NCBI GenBank assembly: GCA_030448225.1
Contig: JAUJNJ010000083.1
Coordinates: forward strand, 1 to 25,128
Length of the DNA stretch: 25,128 nt
Reading direction: 5' to 3'
From: Phycisphaerae bacterium
GTDB lineage: Bacteria > Planctomycetota > Phycisphaerae > Tepidisphaerales > Tepidisphaeraceae
This document shows positions 576 to 16,677 of the stretch, in pieces; positions within the stretch are counted from its first letter, which is position 1, and every line of letters begins with the position of its first letter. A program made the position numbers and the translations under genes. The notes beneath the pieces are model-generated. The model saw only the letters and a program-made list of their open reading frames with translations. It ran no database searches and was not told the origin of the DNA.

Positions 576-1342
576 CGGAAGTTATGCGGCCCGCCCAGCA
601 ACTCGGTCACACGCGCACCCGCGTCCGCGACCGCTACGCGCTCATGCCGCTGGAGGGCTTCCCCGCGTCGCGCCTGCCGACCTGGCCGGACGCGCAGGTG
701 AAGGTGCTGGCGTCGCCAGCGCTGGGGGCGCAATTCGTGCAGTACCTCATCGAACTGCCGGCCGGCCGGCGCGGCCACTTCGCGCCCGATCACGAAGTCG
801 AGACGTTTTTCTTCGTCGCGAGCGGGTCGGGCTTCTTCACGAACGGCGCCGGCATCAAGATGAGCATGGGGGAGGGCCACTTCGGCCTCGTCCCGCCCGG
901 CGAAGCCGTCCACGTGATCGCGAACGATGCGGTCTCGCTGCTGGTGTTGCGCAAGCGCTACGAGCCGGCCGCGGGCGTCGAGGTGTTCGAGGGCGTGTAC
1001 GGGCACGAGTTGGAAGTGAAGAAGGCGGCGTGGGCCGACAATCCCCACTCGCTCCTCCAGACGCTCATCCCCGACGAGGTCCGATACGACCTCGCGATGA
1101 ACATCTTCACGTTCGACCCCGGCCACGGCCTGCCGATCGTCGAGACCCACGTGATGGAGCACGGCCTCTACTTCCTCGAAGGCAAGGGCCTCTACTACCT
1201 CGGCGACGAGTGGATGGAGGTCGAACGCGACGACTTCATCTGGATGGGTCCGTACTGCCCGCAGAGTTTTTACGCGACCGGGCCCACGCCGTCGCGCTAC
1301 CTGTACTACAAGAACGTGAATCGCGAGCCCGGATGGAGATAG
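572..1342 (+). CDS. allE: (S)-ureidoglycine aminohydrolase
   Basis: The encoded 256-residue bicupin protein matches UGHY/AllE (E. coli AllE is about 261 residues), which converts (S)-ureidoglycine to (S)-ureidoglycolate and releases ammonia. The C-terminal cupin carries ETHVMEH, giving Glu191, His193 and His197, and CPQSFY with Gln231. The spacing E-x-H-x3-H and then Gln 40 residues after the Glu is that of the manganese ligands reported for plant UGHY (Glu235, His237, His241, Gln275). The N-terminal segment RYALMPLEGF also fits the family. I chose the GTG at 572 because it overlaps the preceding TGA; ATG at 584 is the alternative. It acts directly after allantoate amidohydrolase, encoded two genes downstream, and its product is the probable substrate pool for the unusual neighbour that follows. 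Confidence 0.93.
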   Translation: MTEVMRPAQQLGHTRTRVRDRYALMPLEGFPASRLPTWPDAQVKVLASPALGAQFVQYLIELPAGRRGHFAPDHEVETFFFVASGSGFFTNGAGIKMSMGEGHFGLVPPGEAVHVIANDAVSLLVLRKRYEPAAGVEVFEGVYGHELEVKKAAWADNPHSLLQTLIPDEVRYDLAMNIFTFDPGHGLPIVETHVMEHGLYFLEGKGLYYLGDEWMEVERDDFIWMGPYCPQSFYATGPTPSRYLYYKNVNREPGWR

Positions 1343-1344
1343 CG

Positions 1345-2331
1345 ATGGACGAGAAGATTTACCGAGACGCCGACGTCGACGAGACGGTCCTTAAGGGCAG
1401 GACGATCGCCGTGATCGGGTACGGCATTCAGGGCAAGGCGCAGGCGGCCAACGCGCGCGACGGGGGCTTCAACGTCATCATCGGCTGCCGCGGGAAGGAT
1501 CAGGGGAGCGCAAGCCGGGAACAGGCGAAGGCCGACGGGTTCGAGGCGATGAGCGTGGCCGACGCGACGAAGCGGGCCGACGTGCTGCTGATCGAACTGG
1601 CCGACCCGGTGCAGCCGGCCGTCTATAAGGCGGAGATCGCGCCGCACCTGCGGGCGGGGCAGACGCTCTGCTTCTGCCACGGGTTCAGCGTGTTGTACGG
1701 CCAGATCCAGCCGCCGCGGGACGTGAACGTCGTGCTGTACGTGCCCAACGCGCCCGGCGCCTTCGTGCGCTCGAAGTATCTTAAAGGCGAGGGCGTCTAC
1801 GGCTGCGTCAGCGTCGACCACGACGCGACCGGCGACGCGATGAAGATCGTGCTGGCCATCTCCAAGGCCGTCGGCAGCACTCGCGCCGGCGTCGTGGAGA
1901 TGACGTTCCAGCACGAGACCGAGGGGGACAACTTCGAGGAACAGATCCTCTACGGCGGCGCGATCCACCTCCTGCGGGCGTGCTTCGAGACGATGGTCGA
2001 GAACGGCTACCCGCCGAGCTTCGCGTACGCCAAGGCCGTCCGCAGTCTGCGGAGCGTGATCGACGTGATGGACGAACACGGCATCGAGGATTACCTCACG
2101 AGTCGCTGCAGCCGCACGGCGGAATTCGCGGTGCGCACCCGCGGCCCGCGGGTGGTGAACGTCGACGAGGTCCGCAAAATCTTCGCCGAGACCGAGGCCG
2201 GCATCTTCGCGCGGGACTGGATGCAGGAGTGGGCGCTGGGCATGCCGCAACTCCACCGCCTCCGCCGCACGGCCCGCGAGAGCGAGATGGAGCAGACCGG
2301 CGCCGAGTGGCGGGAGGAGTTCGGCAAGTGA
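1345..2331 (+). CDS. Ketol-acid reductoisomerase (IlvC)-like protein, catalytically divergent
   Basis: The 328-residue protein has the full class I KARI layout: an N-terminal Rossmann domain (AVIGYGIQGKAQAANARD, residues 22-39, and CHGF with His112) and the C-terminal helical knot domain (TRAGVVEMTFQHETEGDNF, FETMVENGY, SRTAEF). Aligned from memory to Pseudomonas KARI, His107, Asp190, Glu194 and Ser251 are kept as His112, Asp195, Glu199 and Ser256. The catalytic Lys130 is Asn135 (PNAPG instead of PKGPG). Metal ligands Glu226 and Glu230 become Lys230 and Ser234 (YAKAVRSL instead of YFECLHEL). It is therefore unlikely to make branched-chain amino acids. Flanked by ureidoglycine aminohydrolase and allantoate amidohydrolase, it may be an NAD(P)-dependent oxidoreductase of the terminal ureide step, for example a ureidoglycolate dehydrogenase; this is inference. 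ATG 1345 has GGAG six bases upstream; ATG 1333 is the alternative. Confidence 0.85.
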   Translation: MDEKIYRDADVDETVLKGRTIAVIGYGIQGKAQAANARDGGFNVIIGCRGKDQGSASREQAKADGFEAMSVADATKRADVLLIELADPVQPAVYKAEIAPHLRAGQTLCFCHGFSVLYGQIQPPRDVNVVLYVPNAPGAFVRSKYLKGEGVYGCVSVDHDATGDAMKIVLAISKAVGSTRAGVVEMTFQHETEGDNFEEQILYGGAIHLLRACFETMVENGYPPSFAYAKAVRSLRSVIDVMDEHGIEDYLTSRCSRTAEFAVRTRGPRVVNVDEVRKIFAETEAGIFARDWMQEWALGMPQLHRLRRTARESEMEQTGAEWREEFGK

Positions 2332-2395: not shown

Positions 2396-3622
2396 ATGCC
2401 GATCTCGCCCGACCGCATCCTCGCCGACATCGACGCGATCGCCGCGTTTAGCGAATCGCCGCCTTCGGTCGGCCACAGTCGACCGACTTTCAGCGTCGCG
2501 TGGCGACAGGCGCGGGACTACGTCGTCGCCGAGGCGGCGCGGGCCGGTTGCGCCAGCCGCGTCGACGCGTTCGGCAACGTCCACCTCCGCCACGCGGCCC
2601 TCCCGCCGGACGCGCGGGTGTGGCTGAGCGGGTCGCACCTGGACTCGGTCCCGACCGGCGGAAAGTACGACGGCGTCGTCGGCGTCGTCTGCCCGCTCGA
2701 AGTACTCCGCGCCGCGCACGCGGCGGGACGCCACGACCTGCCGCTCGAACTGATCCTGTTCGCCGAAGAGGAGGGCACCACGTTCGGCCTCGGCATGATC
2801 GGCAGCCGCGCCTGGACCGGCGCGCTGGCGGCCGAGCACCTGCGGCAGTTCAAGAACCGCGACGGCCTCGACTACATTCAAGCCGGCGCCCCCCACGGCG
2901 TCCGGCCGGAGGCGTTCGACGCGGAGCGGATCGATTCGTCCCGGTACAGGGGACTGATCGAGGTTCACGTCGAGCAGGGGCCGGCGATGTGGGAGGCGGG
3001 CGTGCCGCTGGCCGTCGTAACCGCGGTCGCCGGCCGGCGGCAATACCGCGGCAAGTTCATGGGCACGCCCAACCACGCCGGTAGCACGCCGATGAACTTT
3101 CGCGCCGACGCCCTGGCGGGCGTGGCGTCGGTCGTCACGTTCGTGGAGTCGATGGCGCGGGACCTGTCGCCGCAGACGGTGGCGACGGTCGGGCGGGTCG
3201 AGTGCGAACCGAACGCGATCAACGTGATCCCCGGCACCGTCCGGTTCACCGTCGACCTGCGTTCGCCGGACGACCGCCTCCTGGCCGTCGGTCATGAGCG
3301 GCTCGAGCGAATGGTGATCGAGGCATGTACGGCACGAAGGCTCGCGTTCGACTTCCTGATGACGGAGGACCAGCCGGGCGTCGCACTAGATCGCGGCGTA
3401 TGCGACGTTCTCCGCCGGGCGGCCGGTGGGACGATCCCAGGGACCGTCAGCGGCGCGCTGCACGACGCGGCCGTGCTGGCTCCGATCCTGCCGACCGCGA
3501 TGATGTTCGTCGCCAGCAAGGGGGGGATCAGCCACAACCCGGCGGAGTTCAGCCGCGCCGAGGACATCGCCGCCGCCGCCCGGGTGCTCGCCGTCGCGGT
3601 GGAAGAAGGGGAGGTCGCGTGA
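2396..3622 (+). CDS. allC: Allantoate amidohydrolase (M20/M28-type Zn hydrolase)
   Basis: The 408-residue length is typical of the allantoate amidohydrolase / N-carbamoyl-L-amino-acid hydrolase group of M20 peptidases. Dinuclear-metal motifs are visible in order: SGSHLDSVPTGGKYDG (His81, Asp92), AEEEG (Glu124-126), VHVEQGP (His191), and GGISHNPAEF (His380). GTPNHAGSTPM, in the dimerisation lid region, is also conserved. The usual SGAGHDA appears as SGALHDA, a mild change. It hydrolyses allantoate to ureidoglycine, CO2 and ammonia. The neighbours encode the enzymes that make allantoate and use ureidoglycine, so allantoate amidohydrolase is favoured over beta-ureidopropionase or carbamoylase. 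The stop overlaps the GTG start of the next gene, suggesting translational coupling. Confidence 0.92.
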   Translation: MPISPDRILADIDAIAAFSESPPSVGHSRPTFSVAWRQARDYVVAEAARAGCASRVDAFGNVHLRHAALPPDARVWLSGSHLDSVPTGGKYDGVVGVVCPLEVLRAAHAAGRHDLPLELILFAEEEGTTFGLGMIGSRAWTGALAAEHLRQFKNRDGLDYIQAGAPHGVRPEAFDAERIDSSRYRGLIEVHVEQGPAMWEAGVPLAVVTAVAGRRQYRGKFMGTPNHAGSTPMNFRADALAGVASVVTFVESMARDLSPQTVATVGRVECEPNAINVIPGTVRFTVDLRSPDDRLLAVGHERLERMVIEACTARRLAFDFLMTEDQPGVALDRGVCDVLRRAAGGTIPGTVSGALHDAAVLAPILPTAMMFVASKGGISHNPAEFSRAEDIAAAARVLAVAVEEGEVA

Positions 3623-4146
3623 GCGGCGGCGGCCGAATCAGCCTCGCCTCGCTGAACGCGGCCGGCCGCGACGTGTTCGTCGCTGCCTGCGGGCACGCCT
3701 TCGAGCACTCGCCATGGGTCGCCGAACGCGCGTGGGCGCGGCGGCCGTTCGCGTCCGTCTTGCAGTTGCACGCGGCGATGTGCGACGTCGTGCAGGCGGC
3801 GACGGCGGACGAGCAGCTCGCGCTCATCCGCGCCCACCCCGACCTCGTCGGCCGCCTCGCCCGCGAGCATCGGCTGACGCGCGAGTCGGTGGCCGAGCAG
3901 GCCGCGGCGGGCCTCGACGCGCTCCCGGCCGACGAGGCGGCTGCGTTCGAGAAATACAACGCGGCCTACCGCGAGCGCTTCGGCTTCCCGTTCGTCATCT
4001 GCGCGCGGCAGAACCGAACCGACGCCATCCTCGCCGCGTTCCCGCGCCGCCTGGCCAACGATCGGGCGGCCGAGATCGACGCCGCCCTCGGCGAGATCGC
4101 CCAGATCGCACGGCTCCGCCTCGCGGACGTCGTGTCGGAGGATTGA
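3619..4146 (+). CDS. uraD: 2-oxo-4-hydroxy-4-carboxy-5-ureidoimidazoline (OHCU) decarboxylase
   Basis: Starting at the GTG that overlaps the allC stop, the product has 175 residues, close to the usual 165-170 for UraD. Family hallmarks are the catalytic His73 in RAHPDLVG, the ESVAEQAAAGL segment with Glu93, YNAAYRERFGFPFVICAR near residues 114-131, and a closing helix RAAEIDAALGEIAQIARLRL. It decarboxylates OHCU to (S)-allantoin, so that allantoin is formed stereospecifically after urate oxidase and HIU hydrolase, the next two genes. The open frame extends far upstream of 3619, but that part overlaps the well-conserved allC C-terminus and has no family similarity, so the internal GTG is preferred. 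Confidence 0.92.
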   Translation: MSGGGRISLASLNAAGRDVFVAACGHAFEHSPWVAERAWARRPFASVLQLHAAMCDVVQAATADEQLALIRAHPDLVGRLAREHRLTRESVAEQAAAGLDALPADEAAAFEKYNAAYRERFGFPFVICARQNRTDAILAAFPRRLANDRAAEIDAALGEIAQIARLRLADVVSED

Positions 4147-4152
4147 TTCGCG

Positions 4153-5007
4153 ATGTCAAACGTTCTGACGCACAACGCGTACGGCAAGAGCCGCGTCCGG
4201 CTGACGAAGGTCGTGCGCAACGGGCCGGTCCACGATTTGTTCGAGATCGACGCGGCCGTCGAGCTGGAGGGGAAGTTCGCGGCGGCCTACCAGCAGGGCG
4301 ACAACCGCGCGGTGATCGCGACCGACTCGATCAAGAACACGGTGTACGTGCTGGCGAAGGAACACCGCTTCGCCACGGTCGAGGCGTTCGCCGCGATCAT
4401 CGCCCGCCACTTCGCGGAGCTGTACCCGCAGGTGAGCCGGGCGACCGCCGAGCTGACGCAGTCGACGTGGCGGCGCATCGACGTGAACGGCCGGCCGCAC
4501 GGCCACGCGTTCACGAGCGGCGGGGCGCACCTCCGCTACGCCCGTGCGGCACACGACCGCGCCGCCGACGACCCGACGATCACCGGCGGCGTGCGCGGGC
4601 TGGCGGTGCTGAAGACGACGGCGTCGGAGTGGCGCGACTTCGTCGACGACCGCTACCGCACGCTGGGCGACACCGGCGACCGCATCCTCGCCACGAAGAT
4701 CGATGCCGACTGGGCCTACAACGCCCGCGCGTCCGACTTCGCCGCGCACTGCCGTGCGATCGACGAGGCGATCCTGACCACGTTCGCGACGCAGCACAGC
4801 CGCGGCGTGCAGCAGACGCTGCTCGACATGGGCGAGGCGGCGCTGGCCGCGTGCGATGCGATCGACTCGATCTCGTTCGAGCTGCCGAACATGCACCGCG
4901 TGCCGTTCGACCTCGAGCCGTTCGGGCTGAAGTTCGACAACGACGTCTTCGTCGCGACCGACGAGCCGTTCGGCCTCATCAAGGGGACGGTCGCGCGCGT
5001 CGGGTAA
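4153..5007 (+). CDS. uox: Urate oxidase (uricase)
   Basis: The 284-residue protein is a cofactor-free uricase of the T-fold family (usual length about 290-300), which oxidises urate to 5-hydroxyisourate. Recognisable elements are YGKSRVRL with Lys12 (the lysine of the catalytic dyad), ATDSIKNTVYVLAK with Thr57-Asp58 (same numbering as Aspergillus uricase), GLAVLKTTASEW, DRILATKIDADW, and RGVQQTLLDMGEAAL with the substrate-binding Gln. ELPNMHRVPFDLEPFG follows, with Asn246 and His248. All key residues look intact. It starts 6 bp after uraD and ends 7 bp before uraH, so the three urate-to-allantoin enzymes sit together. No C-terminal peroxisomal signal is seen, as expected for a bacterium. Confidence 0.96.
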   Translation: MSNVLTHNAYGKSRVRLTKVVRNGPVHDLFEIDAAVELEGKFAAAYQQGDNRAVIATDSIKNTVYVLAKEHRFATVEAFAAIIARHFAELYPQVSRATAELTQSTWRRIDVNGRPHGHAFTSGGAHLRYARAAHDRAADDPTITGGVRGLAVLKTTASEWRDFVDDRYRTLGDTGDRILATKIDADWAYNARASDFAAHCRAIDEAILTTFATQHSRGVQQTLLDMGEAALAACDAIDSISFELPNMHRVPFDLEPFGLKFDNDVFVATDEPFGLIKGTVARVG

Positions 5008-5014
5008 GTTCACC

Positions 5015-5368
5015 ATGGCAGGCAAGCTCACCACGCACGTGCTCGACACCGCCCGCGGCCGGCCCGCGTCGGGGATGCGGATCGAGCTGTACCGCGTCGG
5101 CGCGCCCGGCGGCGCGACGCCGCTCGTCGAGGCCGAGACCAGCGCCGACGGCCGCCCGCCGGCCCCGCTGCTCGAGGGGGACCTCGCCGCCGGCACGTAC
5201 CGCCTCGTGTTCCACGTCGGCGGCTACTTCGCCGCCCGCGCCGACCCCGACGCGCGGCGCTTCCTCGACGTCGTGCCGATCGTGTTCGTCGTCGACGACC
5301 CGGCCGGCCACTACCACGTGCCGCTGCTCGTCTCGCCGTGGGCGTACAGCACGTACCGGGGGAGTTGA
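5015..5368 (+). CDS. uraH: 5-hydroxyisourate hydrolase (transthyretin-like)
   Basis: The 117-residue protein is a textbook transthyretin-related HIU hydrolase. It shows LTTHVLDTARGRPA with His8, the DGR turn with Arg47, HYHVPLLVSPWAY with His101, and the C-terminal signature YRGS with Tyr114. By comparison with Bacillus PucM these correspond to the His/Arg/His/Tyr active-site set. It hydrolyses HIU from urate oxidase to OHCU for UraD. There is no signal peptide, so it should be cytoplasmic. The 45-bp gap to the next gene is a G-rich stretch with repeated GGGGAGT-like words, which may be a small intergenic repeat. Confidence 0.96.
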   Translation: MAGKLTTHVLDTARGRPASGMRIELYRVGAPGGATPLVEAETSADGRPPAPLLEGDLAAGTYRLVFHVGGYFAARADPDARRFLDVVPIVFVVDDPAGHYHVPLLVSPWAYSTYRGS

Positions 5369-5413: not shown

Positions 5414-6784
5414 ATGGCGTGGGACGTGCTCATTCGTGGCGGCGAGGTGGTGACGCCGGACGGCGTGCGCCGGCTCGACGTCGCGATCGAGGGGGGCACG
5501 ATCGTGGAACTCGCGCCGGAACTGACGGGTGCGGCGCGAGAATCGATCGATGCGGCGAGGCTGCACGTCTTTCCCGGCGTGATCGACGCGCACGTCCACT
5601 TCAACGAGCCGGGGCGGACCGACTGGGAAGGCTTCGACACCGGCTCGGCCGCGCTGGCGGCCGGCGGCGGGACGTGCTTCTTCGACATGCCGCTCAACAG
5701 CCACCCGCCGACGCTCGACGGCGAAAGCTTCGACCTGAAGCGCAAGGCCGCCGAGGCGAGCAGCCGCACCGACTTCGCCCTGTGGGGCGGGCTGACGCCG
5801 GGCAACCTCGACAAGCTGGAAGAGTTGGCCGACCGCGGCGTCGTCGGGTTCAAGGCATTCATGTCCGACAGCGGGATCGAGGAGTTCGGCCGGGCGGACG
5901 ATGAGACGTTGTTCGGCGGCATGAAGATCGCGGCGAAACTCGGGCTGCCAGTCGCGGTCCACGCCGAGAGCCAGGAGATCACCGGGCGTCTGACGGCCGA
6001 GGCGCGGGCGGCTCGGCGGACGTCTTACGCCGACTACCTCCGCTCCCGTCCGCCGGAGGCAGAGGTGGCTGCGATTCGGACCGCGGTGTTGCTGGCGAAG
6101 GAAGCGGGCTGCTCGCTGCATGTCGTCCACGTCAGCACGCCGGACGGCGTGCAGGCATGTACGTTCGCCGCCAGTGGTTCTGACGTCACATGCGAGACGT
6201 GTCCACACTACCTGTGGTTTGATGACGAAGACCTGCTGGCGGCCGGCGCGGCGCTGAAGTGCGCGCCGCCGTTGCGTAACGGCGAGTCGAGGGGCTGGCT
6301 GCGAAAATACCTGAGCACCGGGATGATCACAACGATCGGCTCCGATCACTCGCCCGCCCCGGCGTCGATGAAATCCAGCGACGATGCCTTCGCGGCTTGG
6401 GGTGGGATCGCGGGCGTACAATCTACACTGCCGGTGATGCTCACGGTCGCGCGGCACTGCGGCATTCACGTCATCGGCAGGCTCACGGCCGGTTACGTGG
6501 CGACGCGCTTTAACATCCGCGAGAAGGGCGGCATCGCAATCGGACTCGACGCTGATCTTGCGCTGGTCGACGTCGACGCGCAGTACACTCTTACCCGCGA
6601 CATGCTCCTCGACCGCCACAAGCTGAGTCCCTATGTCGGCCGGCGGTTCCGCGGGCTCGTGCGACGTACAATGGTGCGCGGGCACACGGTGCTCCTCGAC
6701 GGCCGGACCGTCGGCGACTTCCGCGGGCGCCTGGTGAAGCCGGCCAGCACCGGGCGGAACGACGTCGGGGCCGCGCATGCGTGA
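5414..6784 (+). CDS. allB: Allantoinase
   Basis: This 456-residue cyclic amidohydrolase matches AllB (E. coli about 453). It shows the binuclear metal site of the family: DAHVHFNEPG with His60 and His62, a probably carboxylated Lys147 in GFKAFMSDSG, His183 in AVHAESQE, His239 in HVVHVS, and Asp311 in GSDHSP. FNEPGRTDWEGF is typical of allantoinase rather than dihydropyrimidinase or dihydroorotase. It opens the hydantoin ring of allantoin to give allantoate for AllC. An AAGGAAGG ribosome-binding site lies just before the ATG. The 3' end overlaps the xanthine dehydrogenase small-subunit start by 8 bp. Confidence 0.95.
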   Translation: MAWDVLIRGGEVVTPDGVRRLDVAIEGGTIVELAPELTGAARESIDAARLHVFPGVIDAHVHFNEPGRTDWEGFDTGSAALAAGGGTCFFDMPLNSHPPTLDGESFDLKRKAAEASSRTDFALWGGLTPGNLDKLEELADRGVVGFKAFMSDSGIEEFGRADDETLFGGMKIAAKLGLPVAVHAESQEITGRLTAEARAARRTSYADYLRSRPPEAEVAAIRTAVLLAKEAGCSLHVVHVSTPDGVQACTFAASGSDVTCETCPHYLWFDDEDLLAAGAALKCAPPLRNGESRGWLRKYLSTGMITTIGSDHSPAPASMKSSDDAFAAWGGIAGVQSTLPVMLTVARHCGIHVIGRLTAGYVATRFNIREKGGIAIGLDADLALVDVDAQYTLTRDMLLDRHKLSPYVGRRFRGLVRRTMVRGHTVLLDGRTVGDFRGRLVKPASTGRNDVGAAHA

Positions 6785-8289
6785 CCACCTCTACTTCTAC
6801 GTGAACGGCCGGCCCGTGGACGTCGCCGGCGACGACGCGTTCCTCACGCTCTCCGACTTCCTCCGCCGGCGAGGCGGGTTGATCGGCACGAAGGTGGTGT
6901 GCGCCGAGGGCGACTGCGGCTCGTGCTCGGTGCTCGTCGGCCGACCGGCGGGCGGCGGCATGCGTTACGCGGCGGTCGCGTCGTGCATCCAACTGCTGTT
7001 TCAGCTCGACGGAGCACACATCGTCACGATCGAGGGGCTGCGCGACGGGCAGGCGCTCAACCCGATCCAGCAGGCGATGGTCACCTGTCATGGCACGCAG
7101 TGCGGCTTCTGCACGCCGGGCTTCGTTGTCGCGCTGTACGACCTGATGCACGACGGCCGGCCGATCGACGCCGACGCGGTGCGGCGGGGACTCGTCGGCA
7201 ACCTGTGCCGGTTCACGGGGTACAATTCGATCGTCAGTGCGGCGATGGAGACGGACCGCGCGAACCTCAAGCCGCTCGACGCGCTGTATCCGCCCGCTGT
7301 GATCGCCGCCACCCTCACGCGCGCGGGCGAGGCCGTACTCCCATCGAGGTGCCCGGCGGCCGCGCGCTTCAAGCCGACCGACTTGGCCGCCGCCGTCCGC
7401 TTCCGCGGCGAGAACCCCGGCTGCCGTCGTCGCCGGCGGCACGGACCTGGCGTGGTCTACAACAAGCGGATGCGTTCGATCGACGTCGCGATGAGTACCG
7501 GCGCTGGCGGAACTGCGCGGCGTGACGTGCGACGGTGACGCGATCTACGTCGGTGCGGGCGAACCGCTTACCGAGTTGGAGCGGCGGCTGACCACCTGCC
7601 GGAACTCGGCCGTTACCTCGCGTGGTTCGGGTCGCCGCTCATCAAGAACGCCGGGACCCTCGGTGGGAACCTCGTCACCTGGCTCGCCGATCGGCGACAC
7701 GCTGCCGCCGCTGATCGTGCTGGGCGCGGAGATCGACCTCGCCGGCGCGCGGCACGCGCGGCGTGCCGGCGCGCAGCAGTTCTACACGGGCTACCGCCAA
7801 ACGGTGCTCGCGCCGGACGAACTCGTGACCGGCGTCCGCATCCCGATCCCGAAGGCCGACGAGATCCTGCGGCTCTACAAGGTGTCCCGCCGGAAGGACC
7901 TCGACATCTCCAGCTTCAGCGCCGCGATTTGCCTGAAGCGGTCGGGCGGCGTGATCGCCGACGTGCGGATCGCCTTCGGCGGCGTCGGCCCCACCGTGCT
8001 GCGGATGACGAAGACGGAGGCCGCCCTTCGCGGCGGGCCCGCCACGCTCGACCGCTTCGAACGCGCGGCCGCCGTCGCCGCCGCCCAGGTCACGCCGATC
8101 TCCGACGTGCGCGGCTCCGAGCGATACCGCCGATCACTCGCCGGCAATATTCTCCTGAAGTTCTGGCACGAAATGATCGGCGGCCGCGACCACGGTGACG
8201 GCGGAAGCAACGGCGACGGCCCGCCAGGCCCGGCGGCCGATCCGCTTCGCCTCCCGCAGCCGGCGGCAGTGACCCGCACGGAGGCGTGA
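6777..8289 (+). CDS. xdhA: Xanthine dehydrogenase small subunit (2Fe-2S + FAD), frameshifted
   Basis: The N-terminal part (6777 to about 7340) is a molybdenum-hydroxylase 2Fe-2S domain. Cluster I cysteines are C42, C47, C50 and C70. The second domain has CGFC (C109, C112), but GNLCRFTGY has Phe146 where CRC is usual. The FAD domain follows (AGGTDLA, IKNAGTLGGNLV, SPIGDTLPPL) and then the CO-dehydrogenase-flavoprotein C-terminal domain, ending YRRSLAGNILLKFWHEM. Conserved motifs jump frame at about 7341, 7367, 7420, 7452, 7503, 7593 and 7680, and perhaps once more near 7750-7780. From 7681 on, one frame reads to the TGA at 8287-8289. Several jumps are compensating pairs, so sequence error is more likely than decay. 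With XdhB the enzyme oxidises hypoxanthine/xanthine to urate, feeding the upstream urate oxidase. Confidence 0.88.
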
Positions 8290-8540
8290 GTGGCGGGAGC
8301 TGGACGGCGCGACGTGCGTTGCCTGCACGCGTCGCCTGTGCTTTCCGGGCCGAACTTTCAAAGCGACGCGGGCAAATAGCAGCGAAAGTAATGGGGAGCG
8401 TGGGCGGTGTCGTCGTGAGTGCAGCGAAAGATCCTCCACAGATTCTGTGGATGCGGCGAGAGATCCTTCGAAGTACCTCAGGATGACAAGCAGCCGCGCG
8501 CCCGGTGGGCCGGACGCGCACGTGAACGAAGGTGAGCACG
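8290..8540 (+). other. Gap between xdhA and xdhB
   Basis: I see no gene in these 251 bases. The middle is occupied by a palindromic repeat (8409-8489, listed separately). At the downstream end GAAGGTG (about 8527-8533) is a plausible ribosome-binding site for ATG 8541. The preceding operon genes are separated by 64 bp at most, so the repeat looks inserted into the operon. Confidence 0.6.
8409..8489. repeat. REP-like imperfect palindrome, copy 1
   Basis: The left arm GTCGTCGTGAGTGCAGCG then AAAGATC pairs imperfectly with the right arm GATCCTTCGAAGTACC then TCAGGATGAC. The centre has its own small palindrome, CCACAG-ATT-CTGTGG. The outer words GTCATCCTGAG / AAGGATC recur in a second copy at 10993-11076. 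This looks like a dispersed intergenic palindromic repeat, possibly transcribed as a stem-loop between xdhA and xdhB. Confidence 0.7.
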
Positions 8541-10860
8541 ATGGCATCGGTCGGCAAAGACATCGCGCACGACTCCGCCGTCACGCACGTGACGGGCGAG
8601 TCGCTGTTCCTCGACGACGTCGCGCCGCTCTCGGGCGAACTGGTCGCTGGCATCGTGCCGTCTCCCATCGCTCACGGCAGGTTGCGGAAGCTAGACCTGT
8701 CGGCCGCGGCGGCGGTGCCGGGCGTGGTGGCGATCCTCACCGCCCGCGACGTTCCCGGCCACAACCTGCACGGCCCGGCGGTGAAGGACGAACTGCTGAT
8801 CGCCGAGGACGAGGCGGTCTTCCTCGGCCAGCCGCTGGCGATCATCGCCGCCGAGAGCCTCGACGCGCTGCACCGCGCGGCGAAGGCGGCCGTCGTGGAG
8901 ATGGATCCGATGCCGCCGATCTTCGGGATCGACGAGGCGATCGCCGCCGGGTCGTTCCTCGGCGGCCCGCGGAAGGTGGAGCGCGGCGACGTGGACGCCG
9001 CGTTCGCGTCGGCGTCCCGCGTGATCGAGGGGGAACTTGAGGTCGGCGGGCAGGAGCATTTTTACCTCGAGTCGCAGATCGCCATCGCGGTGCCGGGCGA
9101 GCAGGGACAGATGACGGTCCACTCGTCCACGCAGCACCCCAGCGAGGTGCAGATGATGGTCGCCGAGGTGCTCGGCGTGCCGTTCAACCACGTCGTCTGC
9201 GTCTGCAAGCGCATGGGCGGCGGCTTCGGCGGCAAGGAGACGCAGGCGGCGCAGCCGGCAATGATGGCGGCCCTGCTCGCGGCCCACACGCGCCGGCCCG
9301 TGCGGTTCGCCTACACGAAGGACGACGACATGCACTTCACCGGGAAGCGCCACCCGTTCAAGGCGTTCTACCGCGCCGCCTTCGACGACGCCGGCTGCGT
9401 CGCCGCGCTGCACGCGCGCCTCTTCTCCAACGGCGGGTGCTCGAGCGACCTGTCGTTCGCCGTGCTCGAACGCGCGATGCTCCACTCGGACAACGCCTAT
9501 TACCTGCCGAACGTGCGGATCGAGGGGCGCGTCTGCCGTACGAACCTCCCGAGCAATACCGCGTTCCGCGGGTTCGGCGGGCCGCAGGGCGTCGCGATGA
9601 TCGAGAACGTGATGCAGGAGATCGCCGCGGAACTCGCCGTCGATGCCGCCGACGTCCGCCAAGCCAACTGCTACGGCGTCGACGAGCGCAACGTCACGCA
9701 CTACGGCCAGGTCGTGCGGAACAACACGCTGCCCGAACTGTTCGCCACGCTGCGACGCGAGTGCGACTACGACGCGCGCCGGGCGGAGATCGAGCGCCAC
9801 AACGCGTCGTCCGCGACTCGCCTCCGCGGCTTGGCGATGTCGGTGGTGAAGTTCGGCATCTCGTTCACCCGGCGGACGATGAACCAGGCGAACGCGCTGG
9901 TGAACGTCTACCCGGACGGCTCTGTTTTTTTTTTTACGGGGTCCACCGAGATGGGGCAGGGCGTCAACACGCGCATCCGCCAGATCGTGGCCGACGAACT
10001 CGGCGTGCGGTACGACGCGGTGGTCGTCGCGCCGACGAGCACCGACAAGAACAACAACACCTCCCCGACCGCCGCCTCGGCCGGCACGGACCTCAACGGC
10101 GCCGCCGCCGCCGACGGGTGCCGCCGCTTGCGCGAACGCCTCGCGGCCGTCGCTGCCGGCATGCTCGCCCGACCCGACGACGGCCTCGCCGCGGAGCCCG
10201 ACCGGGTCCGCTTCGCCGACGGCCGCGTCGGACGCCCGCGCGCGCCGCAGCGATCCGTATCGTTCCGCGACGTCTGCTGCCAGGCGTACGAATCACGCGT
10301 CAGCCTCGGCGAGCCGCGGCTTCTTCGCCACGCCCGGCGTCGACTTCAACCGCGAGACGGGCAAGGGCTCGCCGTTCCTGTACTACACGAACGGCGTCGC
10401 GCAGCGAGGTGGCGATCGACCGCTTCACCGGCGAACTCGCCGTCACGCGTCGACGTGCTGATGGACCTCGGCCGGTCGATCAACCCCGGCATCGATCGCG
10501 GCCAGATCGTCGGCGGCTTCGTGCAGGGGATGGGGTGGGCCACGGCCGAGGAACTCGTCTACGCGCCGACCGGCGCTCCTCTCGAACTCGCCGACGACGT
10601 ACAAGATCCCGAACATCTCGACGTGCGGGCGCACTTTGACGTGCGCTTCTCGACAACCCGCACAACGACGTGAGCCTGTATCGCAGCAAGGCCGTCGGCG
10701 AACCGCCGCTGCTGCTCGGCCTGAGCGTGTGGCTGGCGGTGAAGGACGCCGCTGCAGAGCGGCACGCGCGGCGTTTCGCAGGCCTGCGCCTCCCCGCGAC
10801 GGCCGAGACCATTCTGCGGGCGATGGAACGACTGCCGACGGCAGACGAGCCGCGGTCTGA
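8541..10860 (+). CDS. xdhB: Xanthine dehydrogenase large (molybdopterin) subunit, frameshifted 3' end
   Basis: From ATG 8541 to about 10317 one frame encodes a typical molybdopterin subunit: HVTGESLFLDD, QHPSEVQMMVAEVLGVP, the Moco-binding MGGGFGGKE (residues 225-233), AFRGFGGPQG (Arg343), STEMGQG and KNNNTSPTAASAGTDLNG. After that the conserved reading changes frame about six times. VDFNRETGKGSPFLYYTNG, SEVAIDRFTGELAVT, the segment from DLGRSINPGIDRGQI to WATAEELVY, SPTTYKIPNIS and DNPHNDVSLYRSKAVGEPP lie in alternating frames. The last contains the expected active-site Glu (KAVGEPP). The final frame ends PATAETILRAMERL; the stop is uncertain and 10860 is approximate. An 11-T run lies at 9925-9935. 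GTG 8532 is an alternative start. It pairs with XdhA. Confidence 0.88.
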
Positions 10861-10992
10861 TGCCATCCGCTCAAGTTCAGGTGCGCCTAAGGTTACGACT
10901 TCTTCGGCGCACGCTTCCTCGCCGCATTCCAGGTGCCACACGACGGCGACGGGTTTGCGCGGGTTGCAGCTTCTGCACAGCGGCAGCCGTTC

Positions 10993-11076
10993 TTGTCATC
11001 CCGGGAGCCGCGGCGAAGGATCTCCGGCAGGTCCCGCCAGCCCGCGTGAGATCCTTCGCTGCGCTCAGGATGACAT
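10993..11076. repeat. REP-like imperfect palindrome, copy 2
   Basis: The arm TTGTCATCCCGGGAGCCG then CGGCGAAGGATCT at 10993-11023 pairs with GAGATCCTTCGCTGCGCT then CAGGATGACA at 11048-11075. The arm ends (GTCATCC, GAAGGATC) match copy 1 at 8409-8489. It lies between the ends of the convergent xdhB and NlpC/P60 genes, so it could act as a bidirectional terminator. The rest of 10861-11158 shows no convincing gene. Confidence 0.75.
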
Positions 11077-11158
11077 GCACCGAGCGACTATACGAAGTGT
11101 TGCGAACCGCTCTAGCGACGGCACGCCAGCGACTGCGCGCGGGAATAGTCTTCGTGAT

Positions 11159-12398
11159 TCACCTCTCGAACATGCGCTTGGCGAAGCAGAACGACGCCGC
11201 GCGTTTCGGGGCGTAGCCGGGGTCGCCGGGGCGGAAGCTGCTGACGATCACGCCCGGGTCGCCGGCCTCGATGAACCGGCCGTCGCCGAGGTAGATGGCG
11301 GGTGGTGGATCGAGCCGCGCGCGGACAGGAAGTAGAGCAGGTCGCCGCGGCGAAGGTCGTCGCGGTGCCAGCGGGTGGCGACGAGCCGGCCGCCGAGCGA
11401 CTGCTGGTCGGCGTCGCGCGGCAGGTGCATGCCCAGCGACTTGAACGACGTCTGCACGAGCCCGGAGCAGTCGATGCCGGCCGCGGTAGTGCCGCCCCAG
11501 ACGTAGGGCGTGCCGAGGAGCCGCATCGCCGCCTCGATCTGGCCTGCTCCACGCGCGGGTCTACCTCGGCGGGCGCGGTCGTCGGCTCGGAGGGCGACCG
11601 TGCGGCCACGCTGGGCGCGCGGATGCGCCGCCGCCGCCGCCGCCGCGCTCCGCGCCGCCGTCGCCAGCGCTCGCTCGGTCGTGGCCCCCGCTTGCTTCGC
11701 CGCGCCCCGTGCGATCGCCATCCCCGGTGCGAAGTCGCCGGACGCGCCGTCGACGTAGCCGACGTAGCCGTCGGGCCCGTGGCAGAGGTACGTGTCGCCG
11801 CCGCCGGCGCTGGAGCAGGAAAAAGGCGGTCGCCGGCGACGCATTCGGTGAGCGTCTCGCGCGTGGCCTCGCCGGCCGGCTTGTCGTAGAGGAAGCAGCG
11901 GTCGGCGGCGACGACGGCGAGCGTCGCCGTCGGCGGCGAGGGCGGCGGCCGGCAGTCGCTCGACCGACTGCGCGCGTGCGCGAAGCCGAGGCGGTTGAGG
12001 AACCGGACGCCGACGCCGCGTGCTCCGGGTACTCGACGAAGCGCGCGCAGGTCGACCGAACCGTCCGGCGTCGCCGTCGCCGTCAGCTCGACGGCGAACA
12101 TCCGCGGGTCCTCGACGAACTCGCGCCAGGAAGAAGTCCATGCACCGGCAGCCGGACGGCGTCGCCGCGCCGTCCGGCTCCACCCGGCGGACGAGCCGCG
12201 TCGTAGAAGCGGTTCCTGCTGCTCGGGCGTCCCCGTCATCTCCACGTCGCGCCGTATCTCGCCGGCAAGCGTGGCGGTCGAAGGCGTCGCCTCCGCGGCA
12301 GCTTTACCGCCGCCGCCGCGCCGCCGCGGCCGGTCGCAGCCGACGAGGGCACCGATCAACAGCACGGCCGCGGACGACCGGACGAAACTCGAGTTCAA
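11159..12398 (-). CDS. NlpC/P60 cell-wall hydrolase lipoprotein, frameshifted
   Basis: The proposed TTG start at 12398 has AGGAG seven bases upstream. It opens a lipoprotein signal, NSSFVRSSAAVLLIGALVGC, with the lipobox cysteine. An SH3-like stretch follows (YLCHGPDGYVGYVDG), then an NlpC/P60 domain: GTPYVWGGTTAAGIDCSGL with the nucleophile Cys (codon near 11467-11469), DLRRGDLLYFL, HH and AIYLGDGRFIEAGDPG, ending FCFAKRMFER with TGA at 11159-11161. These pieces lie in at least three frames, with shifts near 11830 and 11300 and probably near 12010-12180. The overall length is not a multiple of three. The product would be a periplasm-facing lipoprotein cleaving peptidoglycan peptides. The segment order matches bacterial SH3-NlpC/P60 enzymes. 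Repeated compensated shifts suggest sequence error, though a pseudogene is possible. Confidence 0.78.
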
Positions 12399-12745
12399 CT
12401 CACCACTCCTCAAAAGCCCACACGCGCGGCGTCACGTCGGTCGCCGCGCCCCGATTCGTCTCACGACGCCGCGGCGGATCGGGTGCGGCATCTAAACGGA
12501 AGGTGGCCGGGCGGAATCGTGCGGCCGCCCGGTACGCACCACGGCCACAGAATCCGCCCGACCCTTATCCGGACCCTGAAAGCTGCCCCGGTTGTTCATT
12601 ATTTCGGGAAAATTTGCTGCATTTCCGCAAGCGTCTCAATGGTGTCCACTCGACCGGGGGATCGAGTTGGCCCGCCACCATTTGGCGGATCCGTTTGTCC
12701 CGCCGGGGCGCGTGCCGCCCGCCGGTCGGGAAGGAGCAACCTGCA
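12399..12745. promoter_or_regulatory. Divergent intergenic region between the NlpC/P60 and porin genes
   Basis: These 347 bases separate two genes transcribed away from each other, so promoters for both should lie here. An AT-richer island at about 12592-12635 (TTGTTCATTATTTCGGG and onward) stands out from the GC-rich surroundings, but I cannot define convincing -35 and -10 boxes. GGGAAGGAG at 12728-12735 is a strong ribosome-binding site for the porin ATG at 12746. No gene is visible. Confidence 0.45.
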
Positions 12746-14019
12746 ATGTCCGTGTCGTCTGGAGTCGTGCCTGCGTCGCGCCGCGAAGTGGGCGTGCCTC
12801 GTCCTGTTCGCCAACACCGTCGCCCGTCGCCCTGGCCGCCGACCCGGAGCCGCTGGTCGAAGGCCGCGGGCCCGACTCCCGAGACCGGCGCTTTCCACGC
12901 GCCGCCGAGGAGGAGAAGGAGCTGACCAAGCCGCTGATGTTGCTGCTGGGCAACCTCGGCGTCGGCGACGCGCTGACCGAGGCCAGCATCGACGTGGGCG
13001 GCGTGGTCGAGGCTTCGTACACGTTCCCGACGAGCAACCCGCCCGACGACATCATCGCCGGCCGCGTTCGACCTCGAGCACGACGAGCCGCTGCTGAACC
13101 AGGTCGTCCTCTACGTCGAGCGGCAGACCGACTTCGAGACCCCTGGGACCTCGGCGGCCGCCTCGAACTGCTCTACGCAAGCGCCGACGCCCGCTTCACC
13201 GCCTCCAACGGCCTGTTCGACTACGACGGGTTCGAGGACGGCCCGGAAAATCAGTTCGACATCACGCAGGCGTACGGCGAGGTCGTGATCCCGGTCGGCA
13301 CGGGGCTGAAGACGAAGGTCGGCAAGTTCATCACGCCGCTGGGGTACGAGCTCGTGAACCCGGCCGGCAACGCGCTGTTCTCCCCCCGGTTCCTGTTCGG
13401 CATCCTGCCCTACGCGCACACGGGCGTGCTGGCGACTTACCAGCTGACCGAGCAGGTGCAGGTGTCGGGCGGCATCAGCCGCGGCTGGGACCAGGCGCTG
13501 GAGGACAACAACGACGCGCTCGACTTCATCGGCAGCGTCGGCTACACGCTCAGCGACGAGACGAGCCTCTTCTTCAACTTCACGACCGGCCCCGAGCAGC
13601 CGGACAACAACGGGCGCTACCGCACCGCGTTCGACTTCTACGCGACGCACCAGTTGAGCGACCAGCTGACGCTCGCGGTGAACGCCGACTACGTCTTCGA
13701 CGCCCGCGCCGGCCAGGACGGCGACGACGCGCATGTGTACGGCGTGGCCGGGTACGCGGGGTACGAGGTGAGCGAGCAGGTCACCGTCAACACCCGCCTC
13801 GAGTGGTTCAACGACACGTCGCGCGTCAACGGCTTCGACGCCGTGCTTTACGAGGCGACGCTCGGCCTGTCGATCACGCCGTTCGCCGGCGACGACGTCG
13901 CGTCGAACCTGAAGGTCCGCCCCGAGGTCCGCTGGGACTACGCCGACAACGACGTGTTCGACGACGGCACCGACGACCAGCAACTGACGCTCGGCGTGGA
14001 CGCGTACTTCACGTTCTAG
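12746..14019 (+). CDS. Outer-membrane beta-barrel porin, BBP2/OmpL-like, frameshifted N-terminus
   Basis: The start at ATG 12746 follows GGGAAGGAG. The signal peptide is readable only across frames (AAKWACLVLFANTVA in one, VALAADPEP in another). The mature barrel begins NLGVGDALTEASIDVGGVVE and continues with alternating amphipathic strands: the GRLELLYASADARF strand, QAYGEVVIPVGTGLKTKVGK, FITPLGYE, HTGVLATYQLTEQVQVSGG, and the carboxy-terminal strand QLTLGVDAYFTF ending in Phe. The FITPLGYE and closing-Phe pattern matches the porins annotated as putative beta-barrel porin-2 (OmpL-like), frequent in planctomycetes. A compensated frameshift pair at about 13066 and 13141 hides FDLEHDEPLLNQVVLYVERQ; another affects the signal peptide near 12780-12830. 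It probably forms a diffusion channel; substrate unknown. Confidence 0.8.
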
Positions 14020-14380: not shown

Positions 14381-15403
14381 ATGGCGGAGCCGACGGTCGA
14401 CATCGAGGATGAGGCGTCGCTCGTCGCGTACCTGCGGGACACGGCGCGCATCGACCCGCACGAGACGCCGGAAATCCGCGTGCTGGCCGGCGGCGTGTCG
14501 AACAAGACGATCCTCGTCCGCCGGCCGTCGGGCGAGGCGTGGGTGCTGAAACAAGCCCTGCCGAAGCTGCGCACGAAGACCGACTGGTTCAGCGACCCGG
14601 CCCGCGTGCGTCGCGAGGCGCTCGGGCTCGAATGGCTGCCGCGGATCGCGCCGCCCGGCACGATCACGCCGCTGGTCTTCCGCGACGACAATCAGAACCT
14701 GCTCGCGATGACGGCGGTGCCGGAGCCGCACTAGAACTGGAAGACGATGCTGCTCGAGGGCCGGCTCGTGCCGGACCACGTGACGCAGTTCGCGACGCTA
14801 CTGGCGCGAATCCACCGCGGCGCACACGAACGGCGGGGGGAACTCGCGGGGCTGTTCGACGAGCGGTCGTTCTTCGAGTCGCTCCGCGTCGAGCCGTACT
14901 ACGCGTACACGGCCGATCGGGTGCCGGCGGCGAAGCGCTTCTTGCACGACCTGATCGACGCGACCCGCGCCCGGCGGTTCACGCTCGTGCACGGCGACTA
15001 CAGCCCGAAGAACGTGCTCGTCCACGCCGGCCGGCTCGTGCTGCTCGACCACGAGGTGATCCACTGGGGCGACGGCGCGTTCGACCACGGCTTCGCGCTG
15101 GCGCACCTGCTCAGCAAGGCCCACCACCTGCCCGCCTTGCGCGGCCAGTTCGTGGCGGCGGCGCGGGCGTTCTGGCACCGGTACCGCGACGAGGTGGGGG
15201 ACGTGCCGTGGGCGGCGGCTATGGAGCCGTGGGTCGTGCGGCACGCGCTGGCGTGTTTGCTGGCGCGAGTGGCGGGGCGGTCGCCGCTGGAATACCTTTC
15301 CGACCCGGCCCGGCGGCTGCAGCAGCGTGCCGTCGTGTCGCTGATGGCCGAGCCCTTGGCGACGGTGGACGAACTTGGGCGGCGTTTCGCGGAGCGGGTG
15401 TAG
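14381..15403 (+). CDS. APH-family small-molecule phosphotransferase with one in-frame amber codon
   Basis: One frame from ATG 14381 to TAG 15403 encodes a roughly 340-residue aminoglycoside-phosphotransferase/choline-kinase-fold protein. It shows the N-lobe (LAGGVSNKTILVRRPSGEAWVLKQAL, with the ATP-site lysine), then VPEPH-stop-NWKTMLL. The catalytic loop LVHGDYSPKNVLV (His204, Asp206, Asn211, counting the stop as a position) and the metal Asp223 in LLDHEVIHWGD follow. The stop is TAG at 14732-14734, where a Glu (GAG) would fit the family, and both sides remain well conserved. So it is a recent mutation, a sequencing error or read-through. Substrate unknown; a sugar, alcohol or amino-alcohol is likely. 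Two bases separate it from the enolase-like gene, implying a shared operon and possibly a shared pathway. Confidence 0.83.
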
Positions 15404-15405
15404 CG

Positions 15406-16677
15406 ATGCCAACGATCGAACGATTAACCGCCCGGGAGATCCTCGACACCCGCGGCACCCCCACGGTGTCGGCGACGTGCGTGCTGGCCGGTGGGGCGGC
15501 CGCGTCGGCATCGGTGCCGTCCGGCGCGTCGACCGGTGTGGCCGAGGCGCTGGAACTTCGCGACGCCGACCCGACCCGCTACGGCGGGCTCGGTTGCCGC
15601 ACCGCGACCGCGAACGTCAACGGCCCGATCGCCGACGCCCTGCGCGGCCGGCGGTTCGAACATCAGTCGGAACTCGATGCGGCCACGACGCAGCTCGACG
15701 GTACGCCGAACAAGTCGCGCCTCGGGGCCAACGCGTTGCTCGCGACGTCGATCGCGTTCGCCCGCGCCCACGCGCGGTCGAAGGACGTCCCGCTCTACGC
15801 GCACTTCGCCGACATGATCGGCCACGTGCCGCGGACGCTGCCGCGGATGACGATCAACTTGTTCAGCGGCGGAAAGCACGCCGGCGGGCAGGTGCCGATC
15901 CAGGACGTGCTGATCGTGCCGGCGTCGGCGGCGACGATCGACGACGGCCTCGCCGCGACCTACGCCGTGTTCCAGGCGGCGGTCGAACTGACGAAGCGGA
16001 AGTACGCGACCCGTCCGCTCCGCGCCGACGAGGGCGGCCTCGCGCCGCCGTTCCCGGACGTCGAGGCGATGCTCGCGGACGCCGTCGCATCGATCGAGGC
16101 CGCCGGCCTCACACCCGAACGCGACATCGCGGTCGCCATCGACGTCGCCTCGAGCCACTTCTACGAGGACGGCCGCTACCAACTCGTCCCCGAGACGCTG
16201 ACGAGCAGCGGCATGATCGAGCGCCTGAAGCGATGGGTGAGCAGCTACCCGATCGTCAGCGTCGAGGACGGCCTCGCCGAAGACGACTGGGACGCGTGGC
16301 CGGCGCTGCGGGCCGCCATCGCCGGCCGGGCGCTCGTGCTCGGCGACGACTTCCTCTGCACGAACCCCGCCCGCATCCGCCGCGCGATCGAAGCCGGGGC
16401 GGCCGACGCGCTGCTGCTGAAGGTCAACCAGATCGGCACCCTCACCGAGGCGGCCGAGGCGCTGCGCGCCGCGCGCGACGCGGGCTGGCGCGTGACGGTG
16501 AGCGCCCGCAGCGGCGAGACGGAGGACGACTGGCTCGCAGACCTGGCCGTCGGCTGGGGCGGCGACCAGATCAAGGTCGGTTCGATCACGCAATCGGAAC
16601 GTCTGGCGAAGTACAACCGCCTGCTGGAGATCGAGGCGGAGACGGGATTGCCGGTCGTTCGCTGGCCGAACGTTTAG
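15406..16677 (+). CDS. Enolase paralogue (His370-to-Ala active-site variant)
   Basis: The 423-residue protein aligns along the whole enolase family. Visible are the flexible loop SGASTG (Ser39-Gly44), His158 in SGGKHAGG, QD at 166-167 where enolase has QE, ADEGGLAPPF (Glu209), and VAIDVASSHFYEDGRYQL (metal Asp246). SVEDGLAEDDWDAW (metal Glu287), LGDDFLCTNP (metal Asp314), LLKVNQIGTLTEA (general base Lys339), SGETEDDWLADLAVGW and DQIKVGS (Lys390) complete the set. The usual SHRSGE is SARSGE, so the conserved His (370 in E. coli, 373 in yeast) is Ala367, and Glu168 is Asp167. It may still dehydrate 2-phosphoglycerate slowly or act on another phosphorylated acid. Co-transcription with a kinase 2 bp upstream favours a dedicated pathway over the housekeeping role; inference. 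Confidence 0.88.
   Translation: MPTIERLTAREILDTRGTPTVSATCVLAGGAAASASVPSGASTGVAEALELRDADPTRYGGLGCRTATANVNGPIADALRGRRFEHQSELDAATTQLDGTPNKSRLGANALLATSIAFARAHARSKDVPLYAHFADMIGHVPRTLPRMTINLFSGGKHAGGQVPIQDVLIVPASAATIDDGLAATYAVFQAAVELTKRKYATRPLRADEGGLAPPFPDVEAMLADAVASIEAAGLTPERDIAVAIDVASSHFYEDGRYQLVPETLTSSGMIERLKRWVSSYPIVSVEDGLAEDDWDAWPALRAAIAGRALVLGDDFLCTNPARIRRAIEAGAADALLLKVNQIGTLTEAAEALRAARDAGWRVTVSARSGETEDDWLADLAVGWGGDQIKVGSITQSERLAKYNRLLEIEAETGLPVVRWPNV

Follow-up and report, generated by a model that had tools for sequence, protein, structure and literature searches.

The window, that is, the whole stretch of DNA analysed here, comprises positions 1-25,128 (25,128 nucleotides, forward strand) of contig JAUJNJ010000083.1 from a Phycisphaerae bacterium (assembly GCA_030448225.1). 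It carries a urate-degradation operon, within which lies a paralogue with the ketol-acid reductoisomerase (KARI) fold, here termed KARIv. The features are as follows.

584..1342, forward strand: AllE, (S)-ureidoglycine aminohydrolase (TIGR03214, 265.6 bits against a cut-off of 200; presumed start within a frame open from 470)
1345..2331, forward strand: KARIv, KARI-fold paralogue of 328 amino acids (KARI_N and KARI_C domains, alignments, residues of homologues, structural model)
1747-1749, 2032-2034 and 2044-2046, forward strand: KARIv active-site codons for N135, K230 and S234, respectively
2396..3622, forward strand: M20 amidohydrolase, presumed allantoate amidohydrolase (AllC role), of an operon-specific clade
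3619..4146, forward strand: UraD, OHCU decarboxylase (TIGR03164, 199.5 bits)
4153..5007, forward strand: urate oxidase (TIGR03383, 302.2 bits)
5015..5368, forward strand: 5-hydroxyisourate hydrolase, HIUase (TIGR02962, 123.9 bits)
5414..6784, forward strand: AllB allantoinase (TIGR03178, 530.3 bits)
6777..8289, forward strand: xanthine dehydrogenase small subunit, split between the frames 6777-7538 (FeS) and 7522-8289 (FAD)
8532..11335, forward strand: xanthine dehydrogenase molybdopterin subunit, split between the frame 8532-10673 and the initial 55 residues of 10670-11335

The two frames of each xanthine dehydrogenase subunit overlap, covering profile positions 2-213 and 254-467 in the small subunit and 1-668 and 703-757 in the large one; these are either real splits or frameshifts in the record. 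Further along, a BBP2 porin match lies at 12592-14019, and at 14539-16677 enolase domains occupy residues 293-703 of a longer open frame, the upstream part of which is perhaps non-coding.

The ATG start codon of KARIv at 1345 lies 2 nt past the stop of the AllE gene, which ends at 1342, so that the two genes may be translationally coupled. The initial annotation had described the protein as following class I KARI from end to end, and this was borne out. KARI_N (189 bits) and KARI_C (105 bits) cover the whole protein in a domain scan, and the ilvC profile TIGR00465 gave 296.6 bits against a cut-off of 226, a cut-off passed by all three proteins scanned (that of the window and two relatives). 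An AlphaFold model built from 69 sequences (mean pLDDT 84) retrieved KARIs exclusively among the 50 PDB matches listed, the top match being 7q03 with a TM score of 0.88. The same domain scan returned no match in KARIv to Ldh_2, the domain of the AllD family, and neither the M20 fold nor the Ureidogly_lyase domain that would mark UAH or AllA; by family, as judged from its sequence, KARIv is neither AllD, UAH nor AllA. Between the window and locus L001, differences affect 45 of 326 residues but, where the residue is unchanged, 46 of 107 fourfold sites, a comparison from which the protein is seen to be maintained by selection.

The active site departs from this picture of a KARI. A HMMER alignment of KARIv to 7q03 placed N135 on K131, D195 and E199 on D191 and E195, and K230 and S234 on E227 and E231. 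The lysine of the P-K-x-P-G motif, which we take to be the catalytic residue of KARI, is therefore Asn135 in KARIv. The Mg-I ligands of class I KARI are D191 and E195, and those of Mg-II are D191, E227 and E231 (PMC5940873); the same four residues are given as Mg ligands elsewhere (PMC8615647). KARIv has thus exchanged both Mg-II glutamates, for Lys230 and Ser234, and possesses neither the Glu/Glu pair nor a two-Mg site of the type found in BurG, a remodelled KARI. Retained are His112, Ser256, Asp195 and Glu199 as the Mg-I ligands, the Rossmann motif and the NADP-loop residues. Losses and retained residues alike had been proposed from inspection by eye, and the alignment to 7q03 restores neither the lysine nor the two glutamates.

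The Asn/Lys/Ser triple was found in 120/120 sequences when the window protein was taken with its 119 best-listed homologues. In a wider set of 224 sequences (drawn from two homologue lists of at most 120 best rows each, window included, one row being a fragment), N135 was present in 223 and replaced by His in one, and K230, S234, D195 and E199 were present in all. Canonical IlvC proteins, by contrast, carried K, E and E in 9/9 cases (nine of 11 canonical loci taken in, two left out). Because the triple is nearly invariant against this background, its replacement of the KARI residues is not a matter of chance. Other positions fixed in the clade and differing from the nine IlvC proteins include G194, N196, E198, R233 and R236, and R257 is invariant in the 69-row alignment where three aligned KARIs have Asn or Asp. 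In the cofactor loop, R49 and an S-x-S-R motif are retained (193/224 sequences by pattern). Loop residues of this R49/S-x-S type bind the 2'-phosphate of NADPH in KARI (PMC5940873, PMC8615647), which points to NADP(H) as the cofactor of KARIv, but only tentatively, since acidic residues are often interspersed.

When 84,980 species genomes were scanned with short exact peptides, 22 loci at 74-86% identity were recovered, distributed over Planctomycetota, Verrucomicrobiota and Spirochaetota. An ordinary KARI, at 40-45% identity, was encoded besides KARIv in 17 of these 22 genomes; in the other five, all spirochaetes, KARIv was the only KARI found. The genomes are mostly draft MAGs and absences are soft throughout. 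A tree built from 19 variants and 11 canonical KARIs showed KARIv as one clade (100/100) on a long stem, the pattern to be expected if the function had changed and then come under constraint. No intermediates between KARIv and IlvC were seen in the samples, although more distant variants may lie beyond the best 120 rows of each homologue list. Full-length matches in the 22 genomes scored at least 551 or at most 258 bits (one at a contig end, 313), matches in a further search scored 566 bits or at most 275, and a search of 248 Phycisphaerae genomes gave no match from 540 bits down to the limit of E 1e-100. On plasmids, all 115 records matched were below 60% identity, and the ten listed were at about 40-42% and mostly annotated as IlvC.

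The surroundings of KARIv were compared over 26 loci, namely the window, the 22 loci of the scan and three more. In 25 of them, AllE is encoded upstream in the same orientation, with a gap between the aligned parts of at most 146 nt in 23; the exception (L011) offers 599 nt of upstream sequence only, in which AllE is not seen. An extra frame separates AllE from KARIv in L004 and L138. That in L004 (1805-3461) is a frame of 518 residues with glycine/aspartate repeats which by eye have the look of calcium-binding repeats, and that in L138 (about 8920-10185) resembles, also by eye, a GntR-type regulator. A full-length M20 gene follows KARIv in 22/26 loci, with gaps of up to 777 nt, and the beginning of one follows it in L019. 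The contigs of L010 and L021 end before the M20 gene, the M20 gene of L010 lying beside the 3' end of KARIv on another contig, and in L005 a FUR-family frame stands in its place. UraD, urate oxidase, HIUase, allantoinase and xanthine dehydrogenase are present at many of the loci; L015 has the AllE-KARIv-M20 triplet with no other urate gene on its contig, and L006 has it with none except a distant allantoinase-like frame on the opposite strand. Genes for the large subunit of glutamate synthase and for a class III aminotransferase stand ahead of the operon in two verrucomicrobial loci (L012, 2-4794, families assigned by scan; L010, 1-4682, by clustering), an arrangement that suggests possible direct ammonia assimilation or glyoxylate transamination.

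A location in ilvBN-leuA operons would have spoken for branched-chain amino-acid synthesis; instead AllE and/or M20 adjoined or lay near KARIv in 26/26 loci, the neighbours being partly annotated. That KARIv is a bona fide KARI which merely sits beside urate genes is highly improbable. Its passing of the ilvC cut-off is the point in favour of such a reading, set against which are the lost catalytic lysine and Mg-II glutamates, the ordinary IlvC in most of the same genomes and a ureide context conserved across three phyla. Residues, clade and context together rule out an ordinary IlvC identity; KARIv is almost certainly not a working KARI. It belongs to the KARI family by fold, but it fails two features of a KARI and, on its predicted active site, should not be called IlvC. 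Many relatives among the matches listed nevertheless bear the name ketol-acid reductoisomerase.

The initial annotation had argued that the operon otherwise lacks an enzyme for ureidoglycolate, and the distribution of known ureidoglycolate enzymes agrees with this. Among 248 genomes of Phycisphaerae, the class of genome G001, AllE was present in 13 and KARIv (E<=1e-100) in eight, all eight having AllE (Fisher p 4e-12); with the upstream AllE genes described above, the suggested co-occurrence with allE holds in both comparisons. A ninth KARIv genome, G021, has its gene cut by a contig end (5e-93). The four AllE genomes that lack KARIv (G507, G551, G727 and G809) have an M20 hydrolase on either side of AllE, arranged as AAH-AllE-UAH triplets. 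In G507, one M20 protein passes the allantoate-amidohydrolase (AAH) cut-off with 481 against 479 bits and the other matches the Arabidopsis ureidoglycolate amidohydrolase (UAH) with 396 bits, and all four UAH genes group with Arabidopsis UAH at 100/100. KARIv and UAH are mutually exclusive in this sample, UAH occurring in 0/9 KARIv genomes and 4/4 of the others (Fisher p 0.0014), on small numbers of related genomes. A UAH orthologue was likewise found in 0/25 KARIv genomes, where the best matches to the UAH query reached 30-37% identity (no match in G019) as compared to 56-59% for the true UAHs, and AllA was found in 0/22, in line with the absence of allA that had been looked for.

In a second sample, of 294 genomes from the phylum of G009, AllE was present in seven and KARIv in one, G009. 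G507 and G551 have UAH; G559, G569 and G578 encode near AllE an AllD with 52-60% identity to that of E. coli, together with AllG and AllF, and a 3.7-kb contig of G493 carries AllG in the vicinity of AllE. Loci L076, L077 and L079, and L078 in part, represent planctomycetes with AllE, AllD, AllF and AllG of the E. coli type, an oxalurate branch outside the enterobacteria. The absence of allD from KARIv genomes, also raised initially, was borne out only in part: Ldh_2 proteins of the AllD superfamily occur in 10/22 genomes, but when 10 of the 14 Ldh_2 matches were compared with E. coli AllD, an identity of 40% was reached in G018 only. G018 may thus have both KARIv and an AllD-type enzyme. In this spirochaete, relatives of AllG, AllF and AllH lie together (L080, 3366-6857), the 40%-identical AllD relative being on another contig. 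In these samples, then, every AllE locus of sufficient length encodes one enzyme that is known or presumed to act on ureidoglycolate, near AllE a UAH in four genomes or an AllD in three, and KARIv is the candidate for this role in its own operons.

Since KARIv takes the place of a hydrolase, UAH, it might have a non-redox role, either as a ureidoglycolate hydrolase or lyase, possibly through a concealed redox cycle of the kind described on the KARI fold of BurG (PMC9359912), or as a non-catalytic partner of AllE or M20. The absence of a visible oxalurate sink in most KARIv genomes would fit with this. The conserved Rossmann motif and 2'-phosphate residues, however, argue for a bound nicotinamide cofactor, and we regard such a role as unlikely. 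A lyase route coupled to urease was also considered and is weak, 16/25 KARIv genomes having no urease match.

Ureidoglycolate should be formed in KARIv operons because AllE retains its active-site positions: the E-H-H-Q, Tyr and Lys residues, which we presume to be those of the active site, are present in 25/25 AllE proteins of KARIv operons and 4/4 of UAH operons (positions shared with E. coli AllE and conserved in at least 90%). The second neighbour is less clear-cut. KARIv had been placed between AllE and an allantoate amidohydrolase; AllE is confirmed by its profile, but the window M20 protein passes no allantoate-amidohydrolase model, only a broad hydantoinase/carbamoylase one. We presume it to be the allantoate amidohydrolase because allantoate would otherwise be without an enzyme. 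The operon M20 proteins form a clade of their own (22 rows, 100/100) distinct from AAH and UAH, the nearness of which to either carries a support of 53, and their residues are mixed, with G127, G353 and V277 as in AAH and E102, R105 and V262 as in UAH. They have R214 and Q216 (R-x-Q) against Q213 and R215 of E. coli AllC (Q-x-R in AAH), and their substrate range may differ from allantoate alone. A further M20 match, located outside the operon or in addition to its own M20 protein, was seen in 13/25 genomes, and two such second proteins that were compared (L134 and L135) are closest to E. coli AllC at 33-35%; the roles given here to the M20 enzymes are therefore tentative.

The unusual M20 clade is one reason to consider a reductive route, in which KARIv would use NADPH to reduce the imine of ureidoglycine or ureidoglycolate to N-carbamoylglycine, for cleavage by the adjacent M20 enzyme to glycine, ammonia and CO2. 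The NADPH-type loop and the M20 gene that so regularly follows KARIv are consistent with it, and it requires neither the oxalurate nor the urea sink that KARIv genomes mostly lack. There is precedent in Streptomyces KARIs, described as reducing the imine pyrroline-5-carboxylate to a very low, though still detectable, extent, although a Corynebacterium KARI did not convert this compound (PMC4353338). Against it stands the intact AllE encoded upstream, such that ureidoglycolate would have to dehydrate before reduction, and no published account of such a route was found in a literature search. We consider it improbable. Somewhat less probable still is its fullest form, a new reductive end to purine catabolism in which KARIv acts as imine reductase and M20 on both allantoate and N-carbamoylglycine, so that glycine, ammonia and CO2 are formed and glyoxylate, urea and oxalurate are not.

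Other uses of a reductase turn on glyoxylate. Glyoxylate carboligase (Gcl) over the cut-off was found in 0/22 KARIv genomes, lower-scoring relatives occurring in 18/22 with a best score of 332 bits against a cut-off of 711. This disfavours the second function put forward in the initial annotation, reduction of tartronate semialdehyde in a glycerate pathway, which has a chemical likeness to KARI substrates as its one recommendation and is now very unlikely. With no Gcl, glyoxylate would need another outlet, and KARIv could serve as a glyoxylate (or hydroxypyruvate) reductase. Glyoxylate and urea arise from ureidoglycolate by spontaneous decay (PMC3793230), BurG can use NADH to reduce hydroxypyruvate (PMC9359912), and the NADPH-type loop would suit such an enzyme. 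UAH, however, also gives glyoxylate, yet KARIv is absent from the four UAH genomes and UAH from the 25 KARIv genomes. The urea co-product would, moreover, often be wasted, as urease alpha exceeds the Pfam cut-off in just 9/25 KARIv genomes (more than 100 bits in six; 3/4 among UAH genomes). There is accordingly only a slight chance that this is what KARIv does.

Taken together, KARIv is very probably the enzyme of a ureide step, and ureidoglycolate is its probable substrate. The best single guess continues to be the one first proposed, an NAD(P)-dependent (S)-ureidoglycolate dehydrogenase derived from KARI and giving oxalurate, but we hold both this activity and oxalurate as its product tentatively. 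AllE would release (S)-ureidoglycolate, KARIv would reduce NAD(P)+ with the hydride taken from the carbinol carbon, and the resulting oxalurate would then be cleaved by the operon M20 protein or by another enzyme. Oxidation of the carbinol is the simplest nicotinamide reaction available to ureidoglycolate. Within the active site, Asp195 and Glu199 might bind a single Mg2+ or form hydrogen bonds to the ureido group. Lys230, which occupies a lost Mg-II ligand position, could give the positive charge that Mg-II supplies in KARI, and Arg257 and Ser256 might bind the carboxylate. Without Mg-II and the catalytic lysine, the alkyl-migration half of the KARI reaction would be gone and the hydride-transfer half left. 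BurG reduces N-hydroxy-N-isopropyloxamic acid to a hemiaminal with NADH (PMC9359912); oxalurate and ureidoglycolate would form an analogous oxamate/hemiaminal pair, and the proposed reaction would be the reverse of the BurG type.

Two observations count against a dehydrogenase. The oxalurate sink AllFG (AllFGH, PMC11326118) accompanies AllD at 3/3 loci in related genomes, AllG with AllF lying beside AllE and AllD, yet AllG was found with KARIv in only 1/22 genomes (G018, with AllF/AllH pieces beside it). An oxalurate consumer in the same genome is a supporting rather than a defining feature, but its near absence means that M20 or another enzyme cleaves oxalurate, or that the product of KARIv differs; because AllFG sits beside AllD, our expectation of oxalurate was lowered from evens to somewhat below. 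Secondly, AllD uses NAD+ (PMC3527362), in contrast to the NADP(H)-type loop of KARIv, which would also suit a reductase.

If the reading as a dehydrogenase is true, the ureidoglycolate step, known from three unrelated solutions (AllA, UAH and AllD), gains a fourth, derived from an enzyme of branched-chain amino-acid synthesis of which half the metal centre has been dismantled, and KARIv would be a natural experiment separating the isomerase and reductase halves of KARI. As KARIv passes the ilvC cut-off and its relatives carry KARI names, metabolic models will over-call branched-chain amino-acid synthesis, the five spirochaetes in which it is the sole KARI found being the case in point. In a literature search covering titles and the beginnings of abstracts, no published link between KARI and ureide or purine catabolism was found. 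The two sets of terms co-occur in PMC5041015 in the reference list only, and PMC12507026 makes no mention of KARI or ureidoglycolate.

With respect to known systems, class I KARI (IlvC) shares with KARIv the full-length fold, an identity of 40-45% within the same genome, the Rossmann motif, His112, the Mg-I ligands, Ser256 and the NADP loop. KARIv differs from it in the replaced catalytic lysine and Mg-II ligands, in the fixed R233 and R257, and in its place in a ureide operon, as a second gene besides an ordinary ilvC in most genomes. KARIv is another remodelled KARI after BurG and, to our knowledge, the first known catabolic one with half of the metal site removed. BurG, of malleicyprol biosynthesis, is likewise a neofunctionalised KARI and the precedent for both 2-hydroxy-acid oxidation and oxamate-to-hemiaminal reduction, but it binds two Mg2+ and NAD+ and serves another pathway (PMC9359912); in the HMMER comparison, 29 KARI chain sequences outscore the BurG entries (about 1e-43 against a best of 1e-86). 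AllD, of the L-sulfolactate dehydrogenase-like family, would share the reaction proposed for KARIv and has AllC and AllE as operon neighbours (allD-allC-allE in E. coli), lying near AllE in planctomycetes without KARIv, yet its fold is unrelated and it is accompanied by AllFG. UAH adjoins AllE in related operons that lack KARIv and presumably acts on the same substrate, but it is an unrelated M20 hydrolase giving glyoxylate, ammonia and CO2.
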